Below, piece after piece: positions 9,656 to 17,468 of a stretch of 23,596 nt of DNA (its first letter is position 1; each line of letters opens with the position of its first letter). A program made the position numbers and the translations under genes. The stretch is from a virus. The notes beneath the pieces were generated by a model. That model searched no databases. It was not told the origin of the DNA and was given only the letters and a program-made list of their open reading frames with translations. The stretch is from the IMG/VR virus record IMGVR_UViG_3300032282_000050, positions 1 through 23,596 of that record. One strand, 5' to 3'.

Positions 9656-9895
9656 TCAAACATTGTAGTAAGGCACTTTGTAGGTCTTACCATTAACTGT
9701 GACATTCATAAACCCAGCAGGGTTGGCTGGCAACGTAGCTGATCCAGCCGTTGCAGTTGTGGCAGAACTGAAATTCAACAAGTTAATGAAAAACTGTTGC
9801 CAAGACCGTGAGGGACGGTTAGTCGTGCCATCCAAAAACGGTGCTTGTGGATAGGGATTAACTTGCTGCGTGCTAGAGAGTCCAGGAGAAGCCAT
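9656..9895 (-). CDS. Small tail-associated phage protein, function unknown
   Basis: This 79-residue protein starts by a TAATG overlap with the gp10-like gene, so it is probably coupled to it. It has a proline-rich start (P-Y-P-Q-A-P-F-L-D-G-T-T-N-R-P-S-R-S-W-Q-Q-F-F-I-N-L-L). This 'D-G-T-x-x-R-P-x-R-x-W' segment recurs in short virion-region proteins of podoviruses and fibre N-termini, as far as I recall. The C-terminal half has a likely beta hairpin (M-N-V-T-V-N-G-K-T-Y-K-V-P-Y-Y). It could be a small tail or needle-like component in the place of P22 gene 26 or 14, but it lacks the long coiled coil of the P22 needle. Function unknown. Confidence 0.6.
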   Translation of the reverse strand: MASPGLSSTQQVNPYPQAPFLDGTTNRPSRSWQQFFINLLNFSSATTATAGSATLPANPAGFMNVTVNGKTYKVPYYNV

Positions 9896-11883
9896 TAGTT
9901 TTCTGCCCCTTGTACTTTAAGGTTTGCTGAAATGATGACGAAATTCACAGGATCAGTCACCGATACCTCAAAAATTCTGTCACGGGCCGTTCCCAATCTG
10001 CGCCAAATAGCACGATTTCTGTACTTACCCATCTGACCAACAGTTGTCCAATGCTCATTTGACCAGGTTGAACCACCGTCATTTGACCACCGCAACATCG
10101 CTTGTGGATAAGTTGTTGTGGTGTTTGCATTGATGGTATTGAACTCGCCCAAATAAACAGTATCCAATGCCCCAATTGTAAGAGTTCCTGTGTCAGTAAT
10201 GACATAAGGACTTTGCAAATTGATCTGTTGAATTACAGCAGAAAGACCAGTTGTTCCCACGCCTGGTTGAAATTGAATCTGCAATTCATCAAAATATTGA
10301 CGCTGGAATTCAGTCACCAAGTGAGGCGCTCTGCGTAATCTGCGCACATTCTGACCGTCATCTGTGTAATTAGTCTTGTCCAATTCATACAGTTTGCCGT
10401 TTTCATAGTCACCTATAATGATTAAACCTTGGAAAACAGCGCAGCAATTGCCACGGTGACGCTCAAACTGGTTGTCATTAGTCGTGTAAAGCCATTTGTG
10501 CCACATCTGCGTTGTAGCGTCATAAGCCCATGTCAAATTCAACGATGGGAATGTCACCACATAGACTTCATGGCCTTCAAGCTGATAAGTCCACGCTATC
10601 GCATCATCAACATTTTGGTTGGCTAATGTATTTTCAACCGCATGGGTAGAAATCCGCTGTGGGATGTACCCTTGCATTTGCATGATCTGGGCTTGACCAC
10701 GGTTGTTGCGTGAAACGTATGCAAACGAATTGCCAAGGCGATACAGCGAAAAAGGCGCTGCAATACCGTGTTGGGTAGATGTGCCAGGAATCCTTTGAAA
10801 TGGAAACGGTACAGTTCCCACATCAGTCCACACTTCAGATGAAATTTCACCCATCAAATAAACTTCACGGTGATCAACGATCAAAGCCACCAGGTCATCT
10901 GGCGCACCGTCTTTTAATGAGTAGCTAGTCTGGGGTGAAATAGGCGATAAAAGGTCACTAGCGCCCCATTGCTGCGTTGTTGGGTTGTTATAGACAAAGT
11001 AGTTGTCAATAATGTCCACGGTGTTTGCACCGCTAAACGCACCGTCTGTGGATGGCAAAACAGAAAAGTTAATGCCATACATGGTCACGCCAACGGCTAC
11101 CGTACTTGCCACGCTCAATGTGTAAGTTCCAACGCCACCCGTTCCCGTTCCCAATGCCGTGATAATTGTGCCAAGGGTCACGCCAGCACCTTGGATAGTC
11201 TGACCAACGTGCAAAACGCCTGATGTGACCCCAGAAACAGTCATTAGTGTTCCCGCAATTGTGGCAGTCACTACAGCGCCCACGGTTGCCGAACTTAAAG
11301 CCTTAGAAGCCACAGTTTGGCTTCTGTTGATCGTGTAAGTTCCAGTCCCGCCAGTTCCTGTGCCAAGGGCTGTGATCACGGTTTCTGGCAGTATTCCAAT
11401 ACCGTACAAAGACTGGTTAATTGCAATTGTTCCGCTTGAAACGCTTGTGACCGTCAATGTTGTCCCGCTAGTTGAACCAGTAAACACGGCAGCAGCTGGG
11501 CTTGAGATATACCAGGTATAACGATAAGCACCGTCAACAATGTAAACATTGACCCCGTTGTCGGTAATCTTGACTATTCCAGAACTGGAATTAAGCTGCC
11601 CAATCACAGACGGGACAAGGTTGGCTGTCAGCGCATAGACGTAAGGCCCACAGACCGCAATCAGTTGCTCACCGCCAGAAACAGAATGCAGCCCACGAAC
11701 TTCTTGAAGATTTGGCAAAACCGCCTTGACGGTTAAGCCTGGCGTTGGGTAAAGCGCAATTACCCCACGCTCACCTGGTTGCTTAGTAGGATCAACCTCG
11801 GGAAAGAAATTTATTAGCTCTTGTGCGTCTTGGTATATTGACGGGGCTTCATAAGCCGATCCCACAAAGTTAAAATCTGGCAT
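9895..11883 (-). CDS. P22 gp10-like tail hub / packaged-DNA stabilization protein, with inserted beta repeats
   Basis: The 662-residue protein has an ATG with AAAGGAA upstream. The N-terminus ([22 protein letters not shown]) and later blocks ([40 protein letters not shown]) match the family of P22 gp10. That protein forms the tail hub below gp4 and keeps packaged DNA in the head. P22 gp10 is about 470 residues; much of the surplus here is two copies of a 65-residue Gly/Thr/Val-rich repeat (about 133-197 and 204-268). These split the normal 'D-G-x-Y-x-Y...' blade from the following [13 protein letters not shown] blade. The family call is good; the insertion is described separately. Confidence 0.82.
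11080..11487 (-). repeat. Two tandem copies of a ~65-residue beta-repeat inside the gp10-like protein
   Basis: Copy 1 (residues about 133-197) and copy 2 (about 204-268) share the order F/V-T-x-(S/I)-x-G-T-L-x-V-(S/T)-x-V-x-S-G, (V/I)-x-x-x-Q-(S/T), G-x-G-(I/V) and [10 protein letters not shown]-(T/V)-G-T-Y-T. At DNA level they still share runs such as GTGTAAGTTCCA on the + strand. A related copy is present in the gp4-like gene at 13040-13258. They look like small beta modules placed in a surface loop. Confidence 0.75.
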
Positions 11884-11885
11884 AT

Positions 11886-12470
11886 CTATTCCTTTAGAAC
11901 GTAAGACTTGCCAGCGAGTAGCGTTTTAATGGATGGCAAACTGATTTGATAATCAATTGCAAGCTGTCGTGCTGATATGCCACTTTTGCGCTTTTCTCGG
12001 ATTTCATTGGCTTGATCCATAGTGAGTTTGCACCTTGGGCCTTTGTCTCCAGAAAAGTCTGGTGAACGACCTTTGGAAACTTTGTCAGCCATGTTATCAG
12101 CGTGCGTACCAACAAACAAATGTTTTGGATTGCAGCAAATAGGATTGTCACAAGTGTGAAGCAAAAAACCTGATTGCTCTGTTCTAGTTGGCGCTTTCCA
12201 TTCAATAACATTGGGATAAACCAATGAATAAATAACTCGATGTGCGTAATAACTAAAATCTTTGATTTGCACTCTGCCGTAGCCTTCTGATTTTGCGCCA
12301 AGCCAAGGCCAACATTCATCTTCATTACGTTTGTCAACCTTAGACCAAAGAACTTCTGGAGTGTTGGCAGGGCGACCAGGCGGTCTTGGGCCTTCTCCAT
12401 TTTTCTTTCTTTGATAATAGGCTTTTGCATATTCTCTGCGTTTGTTTAGTTTATCTAAGTCTATTTGCAT
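11886..12470 (-). CDS. Free-standing HNH homing endonuclease
   Basis: I choose the ATG at 12470, which has AGGA seven bases upstream; the frame also runs up to a TTG at 12491 without such a site. About 194 residues. The N-terminus is basic ([14 protein letters not shown]) with a G-R-P turn. The middle is an HNH domain: [20 protein letters not shown], then [20 protein letters not shown]. Its paired Cys residues may bind zinc and its His residues form the active site. The C-terminus ([23 protein letters not shown]) is an HTH-like DNA-binding part. Such genes cut DNA lacking them and spread by repair. It interrupts two tail genes and is more A+T-rich than both. Not needed for the virion. Confidence 0.88.
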
Positions 12471-12495
12471 GATTGTTCCTGTTAAAAACAACCAT

Positions 12496-12504
12496 ATTTT
12501 AGCA
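12496..12504 (-). promoter_or_regulatory. Possible extended -10 promoter element of the HNH gene
   Basis: Read leftward, TGCTAAAAT lies about 26 bases before the HNH start at 12470, over the gap after the gp4-like stop. It differs at one base from the extended -10 consensus TGnTATAAT. No good -35 is seen at the usual distance (TTTCAT only). It would give the endonuclease its own transcript. Weak evidence. Confidence 0.25.
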
Positions 12505-12514
12505 TAATCCTTAC

Positions 12515-13495
12515 CTAGATGAAACCCCCCGTAAGTATCCAGCCTGCATCCTTTGCCTTACCAGTTAGCAGCGCATCTGGGTAACGTGCAGTCTGCAATG
12601 GTGACATATTGGTGCGCTTCAACGTAGCTTTAGCTTGACCCGCAAAAGTCTGAATCATCGTTATTTGCGTTGCAGAGGCTTTGCCATACATGGGCATCAA
12701 ACGCTCTGCCAAACACCATCTGAGGGCCATTGAATAGCCTTGTGGCAGCACTAAATCCTCATACATTGATTCATAACGGGTAAACAATGTATTGGCGAAC
12801 AAATGCAGTTCACCCTGGGAGGGGCTGGGCCAGATAAAAAGGTTGCCAGAATCAGCACCAGGGTTGAAGTAAACCGCCTTGGGCCACGGGCCATTTAGCG
12901 TTTTCAAACCAATCATTTGATAGCTGTGCAATTCCAAAACCGACATTGGGTAGTCCAAACCACCGCCTGTGATCGGCTGACCATTAGATGTGGTGTTCAC
13001 CCGCACAAAAGCTGAATCAATGTTCAAAGGCTTTTGGTAATAAGCTGTAATTGAAGTTGATGCAACAGTCTGTGGAATGTTGACCTGGTATGTGCCAACC
13101 TCGTTGATGTTGCCACCAGCGCCCGTCAAAAACTGAGTGATCTTTGTGCCAGCTGTAATGCCTGTGCCACTTAGGGTTTGCCCTTGTGCAATAGCACCAG
13201 AAGCAATAGCGGTCACCGTCAGGACATTCCCTGAAATTGAGCCTGTAAACGATGCACCGATAAAGTTCTGAGTTGATGGGTTAGGGCCAATCGTGTATTG
13301 GGTCTGACCAGCAATAACAGGGCAAATGATTTCTGTGACATTGAAAACCATCATGTTTTCGTTTGACCATTGGTCAATTATGTCGTTCAACATCTCAAAC
13401 GCATCCAATGCTGCGTCTGGAGTCGGAGTTTCACCAGCTTCCAATGCGCCAATGTCTTTTAACGCTCGGCTAACAATGTCATACGGCACAGCCAT
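12515..13495 (-). CDS. P22 gp4-like tail adaptor (head-completion) protein with inserted beta repeat
   Basis: The 326-residue protein has an ATG with AAGGAA upstream. The N-terminus ([40 protein letters not shown]) is the signature of the gp4 tail accessory family. That protein binds beneath the portal ring, closes the packaged head and, in P22, also has muramidase activity in vitro. After Y-T-I-G-P comes an unusual stretch, residues about 80-150. The usual family sequence then resumes at [10 protein letters not shown]. The extra stretch resembles the repeats in the gp10-like protein two genes downstream. The C-terminus ([24 protein letters not shown]) is also typical. The call is good. Confidence 0.82.
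13040..13258 (-). repeat. Beta-repeat inserted in the gp4-like protein, related to those in the gp10-like protein
   Basis: Residues about 80-150 (starting [14 protein letters not shown], then [21 protein letters not shown] and Q-T-V-A-S-T) follow the same order as copy 1 of the gp10-like insert ([14 protein letters not shown] ... Q-T-V-A-S-K). The '[10 protein letters not shown]' segment is changed here to [10 protein letters not shown] plus a four-residue addition. The DNA has drifted further than between the two gp10-like copies. Confidence 0.7.
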
Positions 13496-14113: not shown

Positions 14114-14133
14114 ATTAGCAAATCCATGCTAAT
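14114..14133 (-). other. Gene-boundary hairpin at the end of the second fibre gene
   Basis: A perfect 7-base stem (ATTAGCA at 14114-14120 with TGCTAAT at 14127-14133) with a 6-base loop sits at the stop codon of the 374-residue fibre gene. No U-run follows on the leftward transcript, so it is not a classic terminator; it could protect or process the message. Confidence 0.5.
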
Positions 14134-15257
14134 TAAGTATTGGTTTGGTAAACAGCACTAAAATAAATTTGTGTGCCACCTTGAAAAACTGTAATAGGGT
14201 TAACAACGCCGCTTGACGCAGCTGTAAGTCCTGGAAAATTAACAGTTGTGCTTGAGCTAATTGGTTGGCAAAACAAAGAAACAACAGATGTTGCAAGACT
14301 ATTAAAAAAGTTTATTGAACCAGCTTGGTTTCTATCTGCCGCAGATGATCTAACATTAAATGGCAAACCAGATACAGTTGTTGTGCTTCCTGTTCCTTGA
14401 ACGCTAATATTTAAAAAGCAAAACACATAAACTAATTGACCAATCTTAATGTAACTTCCGTTTTGCGCGTTATAAACTGCTGTGCCACCAAGACTAGGTG
14501 TCCAAGTCCCTTCCTCATAGTCATCTAGCGTGTTAGCGTCTGATGATGCTGATTGAGCTGCGGGGAATGTGATGCCTGCACCGCTTGATGATGGCGTAGT
14601 GCCTCCAACACTAATAGTATTTTGAAATCTAGTAGTATTAGTGCTGTGGTCTATAAGAATTACTTCTGTGGATGGATTATTTGTTCCAGTTCCAGTTAAA
14701 AAAGAAGTAGTGTTAGTGTTTGAGTAGTTTGATAAAATTGAAAATCTTCCAGTAGAAGTATGTCGTATGTTAATACCTGGAATATTTCCACTTACAACAA
14801 TGTTTGTATCTGAAGTGTTTGTGTAATTTTTTACAACTTGAAGCGCAGATACTGGTGAGCTTGTACCAATACCAAAATTAGTTCCATCAAAGACTAGCGC
14901 AGAGCCACTTGTCACAACCTTTGAACCATTGAGATAGGTTACTCCGTTGGCTGTGCCGTAAGACAAGGTTTCGCTTGTGGTAATGCTTGTGTTTGCCGCA
15001 GTTAACGTAGTGCCGTTAAATGTCAGATTGGCAGAACCCGCAAACGCACCCGCATTGTTGTATTGCACTTGAGTGGTAGAACCACCGGGCGCTGTGGTAA
15101 CAGTCGTAAACGCCAAAGTTCCACTACCGTTAGTAGTCAAAGCCTGACCACTTGTGCCATCAGCACTTGGCAACGTAAAGTTAACGGTTGAGGCTGTGTT
15201 TGGGCCAATCAGATTAACTGAACCGCCCAATGTTGCCTGAAAGACTAAAGTTCCCAT
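14133..15257 (-). CDS. Second tail fibre / receptor-binding protein
   Basis: This is a 374-residue, beta-rich protein with low Cys content. The N-terminus (residues 1-60) has the fibre module T-V-N-F-T-L-P-S-A-D-G-T-S-G-Q-A-L-T-T-N-G-S-G. It is followed by G-G-S-T-T-Q-V-Q-Y-N-N-A-G-A-F-A-G and a L-V-F-D-G-T-N-F-G-I-G-T-S-S-P segment (121-135), common in phage fibres that end in an S74 chaperone, which is not present here. Residues 245-300 (D-D-Y-E-E-G-T-W-T-P-S-L, Y-I-K-I-G-Q-L-V-Y-V, G-L-P-F) are a widespread fibre C-terminal module. It is probably the distal part of a two-piece fibre, with the 733-residue protein nearer the virion. The start has AAGGAAA. DNA of the distal half is more A+T-rich than around it. 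Confidence 0.75.
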   Translation of the reverse strand: MGTLVFQATLGGSVNLIGPNTASTVNFTLPSADGTSGQALTTNGSGTLAFTTVTTAPGGSTTQVQYNNAGAFAGSANLTFNGTTLTAANTSITTSETLSYGTANGVTYLNGSKVVTSGSALVFDGTNFGIGTSSPVSALQVVKNYTNTSDTNIVVSGNIPGINIRHTSTGRFSILSNYSNTNTTSFLTGTGTNNPSTEVILIDHSTNTTRFQNTISVGGTTPSSSGAGITFPAAQSASSDANTLDDYEEGTWTPSLGGTAVYNAQNGSYIKIGQLVYVFCFLNISVQGTGSTTTVSGLPFNVRSSAADRNQAGSINFFNSLATSVVSLFCQPISSSTTVNFPGLTAASSGVVNPITVFQGGTQIYFSAVYQTNT

Positions 15258-15266
15258 GATGTTTCC

Positions 15267-17468
15267 TTACGGTGCAATGATTAGCTGATTGGCGGTTAGT
15301 GCGCCTGTGCTTGGGTTGTATTTTAACTTTGTGGACGAAACCGTGATCGGCAAATTACCCGTTGTGTTACTCACAAATGTTGGGTAATAGGTTGCGTTTG
15401 TGCTTGTGTTGTCAGTCACGCCCACATTCGTTGCGTTTGTTGCGGTTGTCGCTGTCGTAGCTGAACTTGCATTGCCTGTCAAAGCACCAACAAATGTCGT
15501 AGAAGTAACCGAAACAAGACCCGCAAATGTGGTCACAGTCGCACCCAAAGCCACGGCAGTTGATCCAATCGTGACGCTTGAGTTGACCAACGCACCATTT
15601 GGAATGCTTGTCAGATTAGCACCAGAACCGCTAAATCCCGTAGCCGTTAAAAGCCCTGTGGAGGGGTTAAATTGGTATTTGGTTGAACTGACATACTCAG
15701 TCGTTAAATTACCCGCTGTAGCGGCTGCAAACAACGGATAACGGGTTGCATTGGTTGTCGTGTCATCAGTCACCGTTGCATAAGCAGTCGGGGTCACCCA
15801 GGTTGGGGCTGACGAACCATTTGACTGAAGAACCTGACCTGTTGTGCCAGCGGCTGAGAATGCGTAAGCCGTACCAGTACCGTAAGCCACAGTTCCCGCA
15901 GTCGGAGTCGCAGTTCCGTTTGTTCCACCGTTTGCGATGGGCAACGTGCCTGTCACGCCAGTCGTTAAAGGTAATCCTGTGGCGTTTGTCAAAGTCACCG
16001 ATTGAGGCGTTCCAAGGATAGGAGTCACCAAAGTTGGAGAGTTAGACAAGACAACAGCCACAGTTCCTGTGCTACTGGTCACGCCAGTACCGCCAGAAGC
16101 CACAGGAAGCGTTCCAGTCGTTAAAGCAGATGTGCTTGAGGCATAGACAGCACCGCCTGATGTAAACGCTGTAAGGCCCGTTCCACCGTTTGTTGTTGCC
16201 AAAGTTCCCGCAAGGGTGATTGCACCGCTTGTCGCTGAACTTGGCGTTAATCCTGTTGTCCCTGCGCTGAAACTTGTCACCGCAGAACTGGAAAGCGTTT
16301 GCCATGATGGTAAACCACTAGAAACAGTCAAAACCTGACCATTTGTGCCAATTCCAAGCATGGCAGTTGTTGCCGCAGCGCTTTGGTATGGAACTGAACC
16401 CGCTACTCCACCAGCCAAATTTGTCGATGTGGTTGCGGTTGTCGCAGTAGTCGCTGTGGTTGCCGTAGTCGCTGTGGCGGCATTCCCACCAATAGAAAGA
16501 CTTGTTGCTGTGCCTGTCAGACCTGTGCCTGGGCCACTAAACTGAGTGGACGCTGTGATTGTTGATCCACCAACAGTTGATCCGCTAATGGGAGTTCCTG
16601 TAATTGATCCACTTGTAATTGCCACATTGTTGGCGTTCTGGGTTGACATTGTTCCCAAACCCGAAACTTGGGTGTTGGCAATCGCAATATTTGTGTCTGC
16701 CAAAACAGTCAGTTGACCTTGTGCGTTAACAGTCGCTGTCAGCGTTTTAGATGCAGACCCGTAAGCAGCAGCTGTTACCCCCGTGTTTGTGATTGAGAAC
16801 GTATTGGAGGCAAGGGTCAGTCCTGTCCCCGCAAAGTAAGTTCCTGTCCCTGAGAACTGAACAAACGTGATGGCGGTGACGTTAATTGTGCCTGTTGTTG
16901 CAGAAGTGGAAACCCACCCTGTGTTTGCGTTGGCAGACCCGCTAACGACCACCGTGTAAGCGCCTGGCACTTCTGCCCAAACATCCATGTCTGTGGCCCG
17001 TGTCCATGCAGATGCAGAAGCCACATAAATGCCGTTTTCTGACGATGTTCCCTGATTTTTAACCAGGACACGATCACCCGCCAATGTGGTGTAAGTGTCA
17101 ATTGTTTGGAGGCCAGACAGCGTGATTGACGTTGTTGTGGCGCATTTGACAGCTTGCTTGGGGTTTAAACCCTGTGCAACGCTGTCAACATAAAACTTGT
17201 TGGCAATATCTGTGTTGCCAGTTGGAGAAGTCGTAACTTGTCCTGTGGTTGCCAGAATATTTGTGAAAACGCCTGTGGATGGCGAAATTGCACCGATTGT
17301 GGTGCTGTTAATTGTGCTGTTTGTGATGTTCAACCCAGATTGATCTGGATTGACTGTGGCGTAGAAAGGCTGACCCTGACCGATAAACGTGTTAAAGGTA
17401 TTGTCTAAATTAAACAGCGCCTGGACAGGCAGAATGTTTTGATCTACTGTCTTGGCAGGGTCAGCCAT
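15267..17468 (-). CDS. Long repeat-containing tail fibre protein
   Basis: The protein is 733 residues, Gly/Ser/Thr-rich. Residues about 91-200 match a known fibre module (N-K-F-Y-V-D-S, Q-G-L-N-P-K-Q-A-V, A-G-D-R-V-L-V-K-N-Q, E-N-G-I-Y-V, W-T-R-A-T-D-M-D). Next come a flexible Ala/Thr repeat (330-349), two S/N-G-Q-V-L motifs (377-380, 544-547), and three N-G-G-T-G or S-G-G-T-G turns (about 427-431, 458-462, 513-516). The C-terminus has two related ~43-residue units (567-610, 685-727) with T-N-A-T-x-Y-P and Y-N/F-N-P-S-T-G. This is the usual build of long receptor-binding fibres in environmental phages. It lies two small genes past the head genes, not at the end of the late unit as in P22. The virion anchor (first 60 residues) is not a recognised P22-type domain. 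Confidence 0.8.
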   Translation of the reverse strand: MADPAKTVDQNILPVQALFNLDNTFNTFIGQGQPFYATVNPDQSGLNITNSTINSTTIGAISPSTGVFTNILATTGQVTTSPTGNTDIANKFYVDSVAQGLNPKQAVKCATTTSITLSGLQTIDTYTTLAGDRVLVKNQGTSSENGIYVASASAWTRATDMDVWAEVPGAYTVVVSGSANANTGWVSTSATTGTINVTAITFVQFSGTGTYFAGTGLTLASNTFSITNTGVTAAAYGSASKTLTATVNAQGQLTVLADTNIAIANTQVSGLGTMSTQNANNVAITSGSITGTPISGSTVGGSTITASTQFSGPGTGLTGTATSLSIGGNAATATTATTATTATTATTSTNLAGGVAGSVPYQSAAATTAMLGIGTNGQVLTVSSGLPSWQTLSSSAVTSFSAGTTGLTPSSATSGAITLAGTLATTNGGTGLTAFTSGGAVYASSTSALTTGTLPVASGGTGVTSSTGTVAVVLSNSPTLVTPILGTPQSVTLTNATGLPLTTGVTGTLPIANGGTNGTATPTAGTVAYGTGTAYAFSAAGTTGQVLQSNGSSAPTWVTPTAYATVTDDTTTNATRYPLFAAATAGNLTTEYVSSTKYQFNPSTGLLTATGFSGSGANLTSIPNGALVNSSVTIGSTAVALGATVTTFAGLVSVTSTTFVGALTGNASSATTATTATNATNVGVTDNTSTNATYYPTFVSNTTGNLPITVSSTKLKYNPSTGALTANQLIIAP
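15288..15770 (-). repeat. Two homologous C-terminal units in the long fibre
   Basis: Residues 567-610 (15639-15770) and 685-727 (15288-15416) share T-D-(D/N)-T-(T/S)-T-N-A-T-x-Y-P-x-F, then T-x-G-N-L, V-S-S-T-K, and (F/Y)-N-P-S-T-G-x-L-T-A. They are separated by a 74-residue linker that carries another A-T-T-A-T-T run. This is a duplicated fibre tip or shaft module. Confidence 0.75.
16425..16485 (-). repeat. Ala-Thr-Thr coding repeat in the long fibre
   Basis: About six 9-base units encode (A-T-T)n around residues 329-349. A shorter relative is near 15420-15470 (A-T-T-A-T-T-A-T). Codons vary (ACC, ACA, ACG/GCG, GCA), so the peptide repeat is kept while the DNA drifts. Probably a flexible hinge. 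Confidence 0.75.

Follow-up and report, generated by a model that had tools for sequence, protein, structure and literature searches.

Related beta modules inserted in the gp4-like adaptor and gp10-like hub of a P22-like phage, with relatives in other virion proteins

Introduction

What is known of accessory domains on phage particles concerns chiefly those with Ig-like folds, and the purpose of such domains is unsettled. Roughly one in four tailed phages is reported to have Ig-like domains (Fraser et al. 2006), and the virion proteins that bear them belong to five classes; weak carbohydrate contact has been proposed for them, as yet unproven, and T4 particles without Hoc aggregate at low cation (PMC7602432, PMC8718954). 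The BACON repeats of crAss-like phages are beta modules arranged in tandem in tail-associated proteins, and they owe their spread to duplication and horizontal transfer (PMC6949934). In phage XM1 the tail sheath tolerates an inserted domain, reported to be similar to FliD D3, and gp53 is located on the capsid surface (PMC10457771).

Here we characterise a module of approximately 68 residues, designated module A, which is present once in a gp4-like adaptor and twice in tandem in a gp10-like hub. Both proteins are encoded by a 23.6 kb virus record, the whole of which was analysed and is referred to below as the window. Its minus strand carries a P22-like structural cluster comprising a P22-type coat protein (PF11651), the gp4-like adaptor, an HNH gene, the gp10-like hub and ejection-type proteins. 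No matches came from scans of the whole window for Rfam families and tRNAs. The features of concern are as follows.

12515..13495, minus strand: gp4-like head-tail adaptor, 326 aa, with one module A (phrog_12985, E 1.8e-39)
13040..13258, minus strand: module A of gp4, residues 80-152, with the gp4-specific GGNINE loop (HMM and BLASTP; a gap here in homologues of 234-248 aa)
9895..11883, minus strand: gp10-like tail hub / head closure Hc3, 662 aa, with two tandem modules A (phrog_578, E 1.8e-98)
11287..11493, minus strand: gp10 module A1, residues 131-199 (BLASTP, HMM and shuffles; missing from homologues of 473-566 aa)
11077..11280, minus strand: gp10 module A2, residues 202-269 (HMM and shuffles)

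Results and Discussion

One module family in two tail proteins

The first-pass annotation of this DNA had proposed that a single repeat family is common to the gp4-like and gp10-like proteins, and this was borne out. BLASTP comparison of the two proteins returned matches with E values of 2e-15 and 3e-15, located in the module segments, while 2000 composition-preserving shuffles per pair gave z scores of 15.9 for the gp4 module with the first gp10 module, 14.8 for the gp4 module with the second, and 15.8 for the two gp10 modules with each other. The search of the remainder of the genome that had been advised at that time was performed with a module HMM over the ORFs of the window and revealed no carriers besides the gp4-like and gp10-like ORFs; a reversed-sequence control produced no matches among 12,981 ORFs. 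Three longer relatives (31-36 kb) each contained exactly three module matches, in frames of gp4 and gp10 size.

When 16 modules were compared to Pfam-A, they matched no module model and, up to an E value of 1, no Ig family; a hint of FeoA (E 0.24 for the whole protein, 0.011 for one module) fell below the cut-off. Sequence searches of the PDB with the module returned chance-level matches only. Of the PHROG families, phrog_21413 (unknown function) was matched by all 16 sampled modules and phrog_38233 (tail fiber) by 15 of them, the module being an unmarked part of a longer profile in both cases, with an annotation that is silent on a mobile module. The consensus strings of the module had no match in the literature searched.

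The modules are insertions in recognisable P22-type proteins

The module segments are true insertions in both proteins, as had also been claimed. The phrog_12985 profile (238 positions) lacks the module, since it covers gp4 residues 6-301 with just 217 profile positions, and phrog_578, which lacks the module too, matches gp10 in three separate stretches. Module-free homologues are numerous (234-248 aa for gp4, 473-566 aa for gp10); in alignments of their representatives, a clean gap is flanked on either side by aligned sequence. We also checked whether the segment is a normal part of most relatives, or whether the segments are unrelated to each other, and neither was found to be the case. The gp10 pair occupies a single insertion site, between a stretch of 10 and a stretch of 13 residues, which aligns near residues 121/124 of P22 gp10; the earlier suggestion that two neighbouring blades are broken is wrong because the tandem pair sits at this one site. 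An insert at the site of the gp4 module, in gp4 of Xanthomonas phage PBR31, resembles the module by eye but scores 3.2 bits, and was not counted as module A.

Structure prediction with P22 as reference, which had likewise been recommended, supported these assignments. The AlphaFold model of gp4 has a pLDDT of 80.6 overall and mostly 85-92 across residues 80-152, while that of gp10 has a pLDDT of 85.1 and a pTM of 0.82, with values of mostly 83-93 across residues 131-270; the module segments are thus predicted with confidence as beta domains. The cores match P22 gp4 (8u10_m; VIA-align Z 15.1, rmsd 2.0, 111 residues) and P22 gp10 (8eap_D; VIA-align Z 38.6, rmsd 2.4, 440 residues aligned). The gp4-like protein therefore combines the fold of a P22 gp4-type adaptor with its gene position before gp10, and the gp10-like protein combines the family profile (phrog_578) with the propeller fold (8eap_D) of a P22 gp10-type hub (Hc3).

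The module region of the gp4 model (residues 75-154) was matched to residues 4-77 of chain 1 of 8eci from Arthrobacter phage Bridgette (Foldseek probability 1.00, VIA Z 6.4, 24% identity), which we take to be a decoration protein. This fold match covers the module and was not found by sequence; EF1A and EF-Tu-type barrels are tied with it (Z 6.5-6.8), all of these matches being weak and any relationship tentative. The structural matches listed for gp4, with the whole model as query, include no Ig domain. Those listed by Foldseek against viral models included collagen-repeat proteins of giant viruses and a major capsid protein of the HK97 type.

Order of gain and retention of the modules

Module counts were determined for 274 unique gp4/gp10 pairs, which were sampled via several separate queries and whose frequencies are accordingly not prevalences. 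The counts for gp4 and gp10, respectively, were zero and zero in 68 pairs, one and zero in 63, two and zero in nine, and one and two in 124; the ten pairs with other combinations all possess gp10 modules. In none of the 274 were gp10 modules present without a gp4 module. On a tree of 120 gp10 cores, constructed after excision of the module region, one change of state suffices for the gp10 modules (the split that sets them apart has an SH-aLRT of 99), and the gp4 module, when its state was scored on the same tree, likewise needs one. The nesting of module counts in the pairs fits an order in which the gp4 module was gained first and the gp10 modules second. The HNH gene between gp4 and gp10 was considered as the agent of spread, yet a gene-sized gap occurs there both with and without modules, which lends this no support.

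Once present, the module is retained under purifying selection and is not hypervariable: dN/dS was 0.086 for the gp4 module versus 0.080 for its core, and 0.124 and 0.132 for the gp10 modules versus 0.086 for theirs.

Breadth across virion proteins

A tblastn search of cultured phages with the two-module segment gave no match, probably due to low-complexity filtering, and relatives were sought by profile searches instead. Module queries of bacterial and viral collections identified 132 carrier ORFs other than gp4 and gp10, falling into 41 clusters that are unrelated outside the module. As judged from these sequence matches, module A is present in at least ten other named virion protein families, among which are the following carriers.

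lambda-D-type decoration protein (PF02924)
XM1 gp53 minor capsid protein (PF23982)
structural cement protein (PF22758)
DUF3383 tail sheath (PF11863)
neck/tail terminator (PF23961)
baseplate J protein (PF04865)
tail tube protein (PF18906, phrog_807)
DUF2793 fibre
pectate-lyase-like spike

The profiles of the terminator, sheath and decoration protein leave the module out of their alignments. Single phages may bear it in several structural genes (L406/L415, L418 and L515). Seven module matches, in at least four virion proteins, were detected in Paraburkholderia elongata NZ_WOEZ01000185.1, one of whose modules is identical to that of IMG/VR record L520. The combination of minor capsid protein, terminator and sheath recurs in L418; in L515 the carriers are a decoration protein and a protein of the tail tube. 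The module is rare in bacterial genomes (2 of 274 of that class); it is not strictly viral, as a few large, secreted-looking bacterial proteins also contain it.

Modules nested within modules

In relatives of the hub, A2 is itself host to nested modules, either of type B (first hairpin, around residue 206) or of type C (GTG loop, around residue 247). Type B is a repeat of approximately 90 aa found in some close relatives, whose gp10 reaches 748-753 or 928 aa; their core DNA mostly shares 81-86% identity with that of the nearest relatives with two modules. Type C (approximately 77 aa) belongs to another branch, with gp10 proteins of 710-835 aa, and once it had been excised in silico, A2 again matched over its full length in nearly every gp10 with a type C insert, L344 being an exception. 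Proteins that appeared to carry three modules were examined as cases of additional A copies and proved mostly to have an A2 split by a nested insert, the A count being two except in L343. Because the site takes up to approximately 270 further residues, it is presumably exposed.

A spreading surface module as the favoured reading

We consider it probable that module A is a separately folding, almost uncharged, all-beta module which has spread horizontally among the virion proteins of tailed phages, and which would be displayed on the surface in a role of the Ig-like type. A surface position is suggested by the insertions that are tolerated and by the kinds of protein that carry the module. In the sequence of events that we propose, the gp4-type adaptor received one module A in a loop, in a single event; a tandem pair was added later, likewise in a single event, to one propeller loop of the gp10-type hub; both insertions were then kept by purifying selection, and the gp10 pair became a platform for the nested types B and C. 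The membership of one family, the insertion, the order on the tree, the constraint, the breadth and the nesting are demonstrated computationally, whereas exposure at the surface and function are inferred. As to function, a general surface service is likelier than specific receptor recognition, and it may consist in weak and reversible binding to polymers of the host or the environment, or in particle dispersal and stability.

A possible structural role at the neck of the tail

The gp4 adaptor of P22 is dodecameric and its gp10 hub hexameric. With 12 gp4 subunits bearing one module each and six gp10 subunits bearing two, two rings of 12 modules would result, and these could pack as a collar which absorbs the 12:6 mismatch and clamps the joint of adaptor and hub. 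The P22 stoichiometry suits this idea, as does the purifying selection on the modules, and one gp4 module accompanies two gp10 modules in 124 of the 134 gp10-positive pairs, with further 1:2 pairs emerging once nested inserts are discounted (the A count then being two except in L343). However, gp4 modules are present without gp10 modules in 72 pairs, three pairs combine two gp4 modules with two gp10 modules (or two plus a nested insert), coevolution of gp4 and gp10 modules beyond phylogeny was not seen, and proteins with other symmetries carry the module as well. A collar of this type is therefore unlikely to explain the modules. In its most elaborate form, facing rings of 12 homologous barrels would surround the tail neck, the module having been recruited twice to bridge 12:6 and the gp10 ring serving as a landing pad for nested modules; we regard this as rather doubtful, the existence of gp4-only lineages and of two-module gp4s speaking against a strict symmetry-bridging requirement.

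Copying within one genome as a rival reading

The first-pass annotation had explained the shared module by recombination within one genome and had imagined that the copies might change together. According to such a scheme the gp10 modules are recombination copies of the gp4 module, possibly still in exchange, as the occurrence of one family in neighbouring genes might suggest. The modules, however, sort by site. Identity of modules at the same site across genomes averages 0.73-0.80, while that between the gp4 module and the first or second gp10 module is 0.517 or 0.478 within genomes and 0.511 or 0.479 between genomes. A small within-genome excess was detected at the protein level for the gp4 module and first gp10 module only (permutation p about 0.001), and a similarly small one at the DNA level in all three module pairs; concerted evolution was not seen. 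In addition, a four-residue loop, GGN[VI]NE, marks 308 of 312 first gp4 modules and is found in none of 394 gp10 modules, 14 second gp4 modules or 30 modules of other proteins, and each insertion corresponds to a single change on the core tree.

In a poorly resolved tree of the modules, those of gp10 and the second ones of gp4 fall among modules from unrelated virion proteins; even so, a clade of gp4 and gp10 modules is not rejected (AU p 0.343). Recent intragenomic copying appears unlikely, given the sorting by site and the loop that marks the gp4 copies, and recent exchange is contradicted already. An old gp4 module could possibly be the ancestor of the gp10 modules. As a whole, spread within the genome has a low probability, similar to that of the collar.

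Receptor recognition or an artefact of composition as rival readings

If the modules were receptor or host-range determinants, they would bind one particular structure on the host surface and would diversify. Their presence in tail fibres and in a pectate-lyase-like spike, together with the tail fiber annotation of phrog_38233, would agree with this, yet sheath, terminator and capsid proteins carry the module too, and dN/dS values of approximately 0.09-0.13, near those of the cores, indicate no excess of amino-acid change. The composition of 69 modules is also unfavourable, with no tryptophan, approximately 2.5-2.7% charged and approximately 5% aromatic residues (W/F/Y/H), as compared to approximately 15% charged and 11-13% aromatic residues in the cores of the window. 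By composition, the aromatic (Trp/Tyr) platform of a classical carbohydrate-binding module is lacking, and the absence of tryptophan would argue against a classical aromatic carbohydrate-binding site. We thus judge receptor recognition improbable, slightly more so than the collar. A general surface service is most likely to be the function instead, because composition and dN/dS point there together.

That the module belongs as a matter of course to the gp4 and gp10 families, or arises from low complexity as its biased content of Gly, Thr, Ser, Val, Ile and Ala (74-80%) might imply, is refuted by the clean gaps in homologues, the shuffle z scores of 15-16, the empty reversed control and the confidently predicted fold, and retains practically no probability.

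Comparison with known systems

The core folds and gene order of the window are like those of P22 gp4 and gp10 (PDB 8u10, 8eap) and of T7-type adaptors; P22 gp4 and gp10, however, are without modules, and the beta region in the core of the gp4-like protein is larger than that of P22 gp4 (166 aa). XM1 offers a further parallel, as its sheath and gp53 represent families that bear module A in the Paraburkholderia prophage, although the likeness reported for the XM1 insertion domain is to FliD D3 and not to module A. BACON repeats are a different family and form tail-associated arrays in gut phages, and they are not reported across connector, sheath and capsid proteins.

The closest resemblance is to the phage Ig-like domains, which are similarly small beta modules inserted in or appended to unrelated virion proteins, with module-free homologues. 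Module A occurs in several unrelated classes of virion protein (41 clusters besides gp4 and gp10) and has module-free counterparts for gp4, gp10, terminator, sheath and decoration proteins, but it differs in being almost uncharged and free of tryptophan, in being absent from Pfam, and in that the 16 modules compared to Pfam-A matched no Ig-superfamily model. Its best fold matches, which are weak, are to a phage capsid-associated chain and to EF-Tu-type barrels. By analogy, module A would work like the phage Ig-like domains, a likeness of behaviour and not of demonstrated kinship. It would constitute a second, Pfam-less family of accessory domains, extending over podovirus connectors, contractile sheaths, tail tubes and capsid decorations, with an order of gain that can be deduced, strict retention and the nesting of module in module. 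A module profile would annotate many unnamed environmental phage proteins, and the relatives with and without the module provide a comparative set in which the purpose of virion accessory domains, Ig-like or otherwise, may be tested.

Repeats and a second insertion in the gp10-like hub

In relatives of the gp10-like hub, two further kinds of repeat are nested within A2, the second of the tandem copies of module A (the ~68-residue beta module). The type-B repeat (~90 aa, AGQFSC...GYTDPTTYYIIATNGSTTF) is located inside the first hairpin of A2 and is carried by gp10s of 748-928 aa, including those of records L041, L043, L063 and L079, with one to four HMM matches in proteins of this size. The type-C repeat (~77 aa, GGTGYNVNDVITVLGGVYG...) lies inside the GTG loop of A2, its carriers being gp10s of 710-835 aa (L350, L351, L358, L376, L383 and L390 among them). 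The window's own hub bears a second insertion, which is unrelated to the first, is predicted with low pLDDT (44-59 in parts) and varies in length across relatives:

~10108-10257, minus strand, gp10 residues ~543-592, near the C-terminus

Neighbouring genes

The following genes were also annotated in the window:

11886-12491, minus strand, HNH endonuclease (PF13392, phrog_1872), flanked by the gp4-like and gp10-like genes
14133-15257, 374 aa protein without a family match, next after the 733 aa protein
15267-17468, minus strand, 733 aa Gly/Ala/Thr-rich protein, partial match to phrog_2647 (head decoration family)

A gap of gene size occupies the gp4-gp10 interval in 45 of 278 unique relatives, module-bearing and module-free alike.

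Module A in other proteins

In a Paraburkholderia elongata prophage region (L406/L415, NZ_WOEZ01000185.1; L520), the minor capsid protein holds module A three times. The baseplate J, sheath and terminator proteins carry it too, as does one more ORF. Module A is also borne by large, secreted-looking non-phage proteins (L402, L404 and L413), one of which has bacterial Ig-like group 1 domains.

The gp4 of Xanthomonas phage PBR31 contains an insert of similar size at the site that module A occupies in gp4:

L160, 4045-4998, PBR31 gp4

When scored for module A this insert gave no match, and it is possibly a diverged copy of the module.
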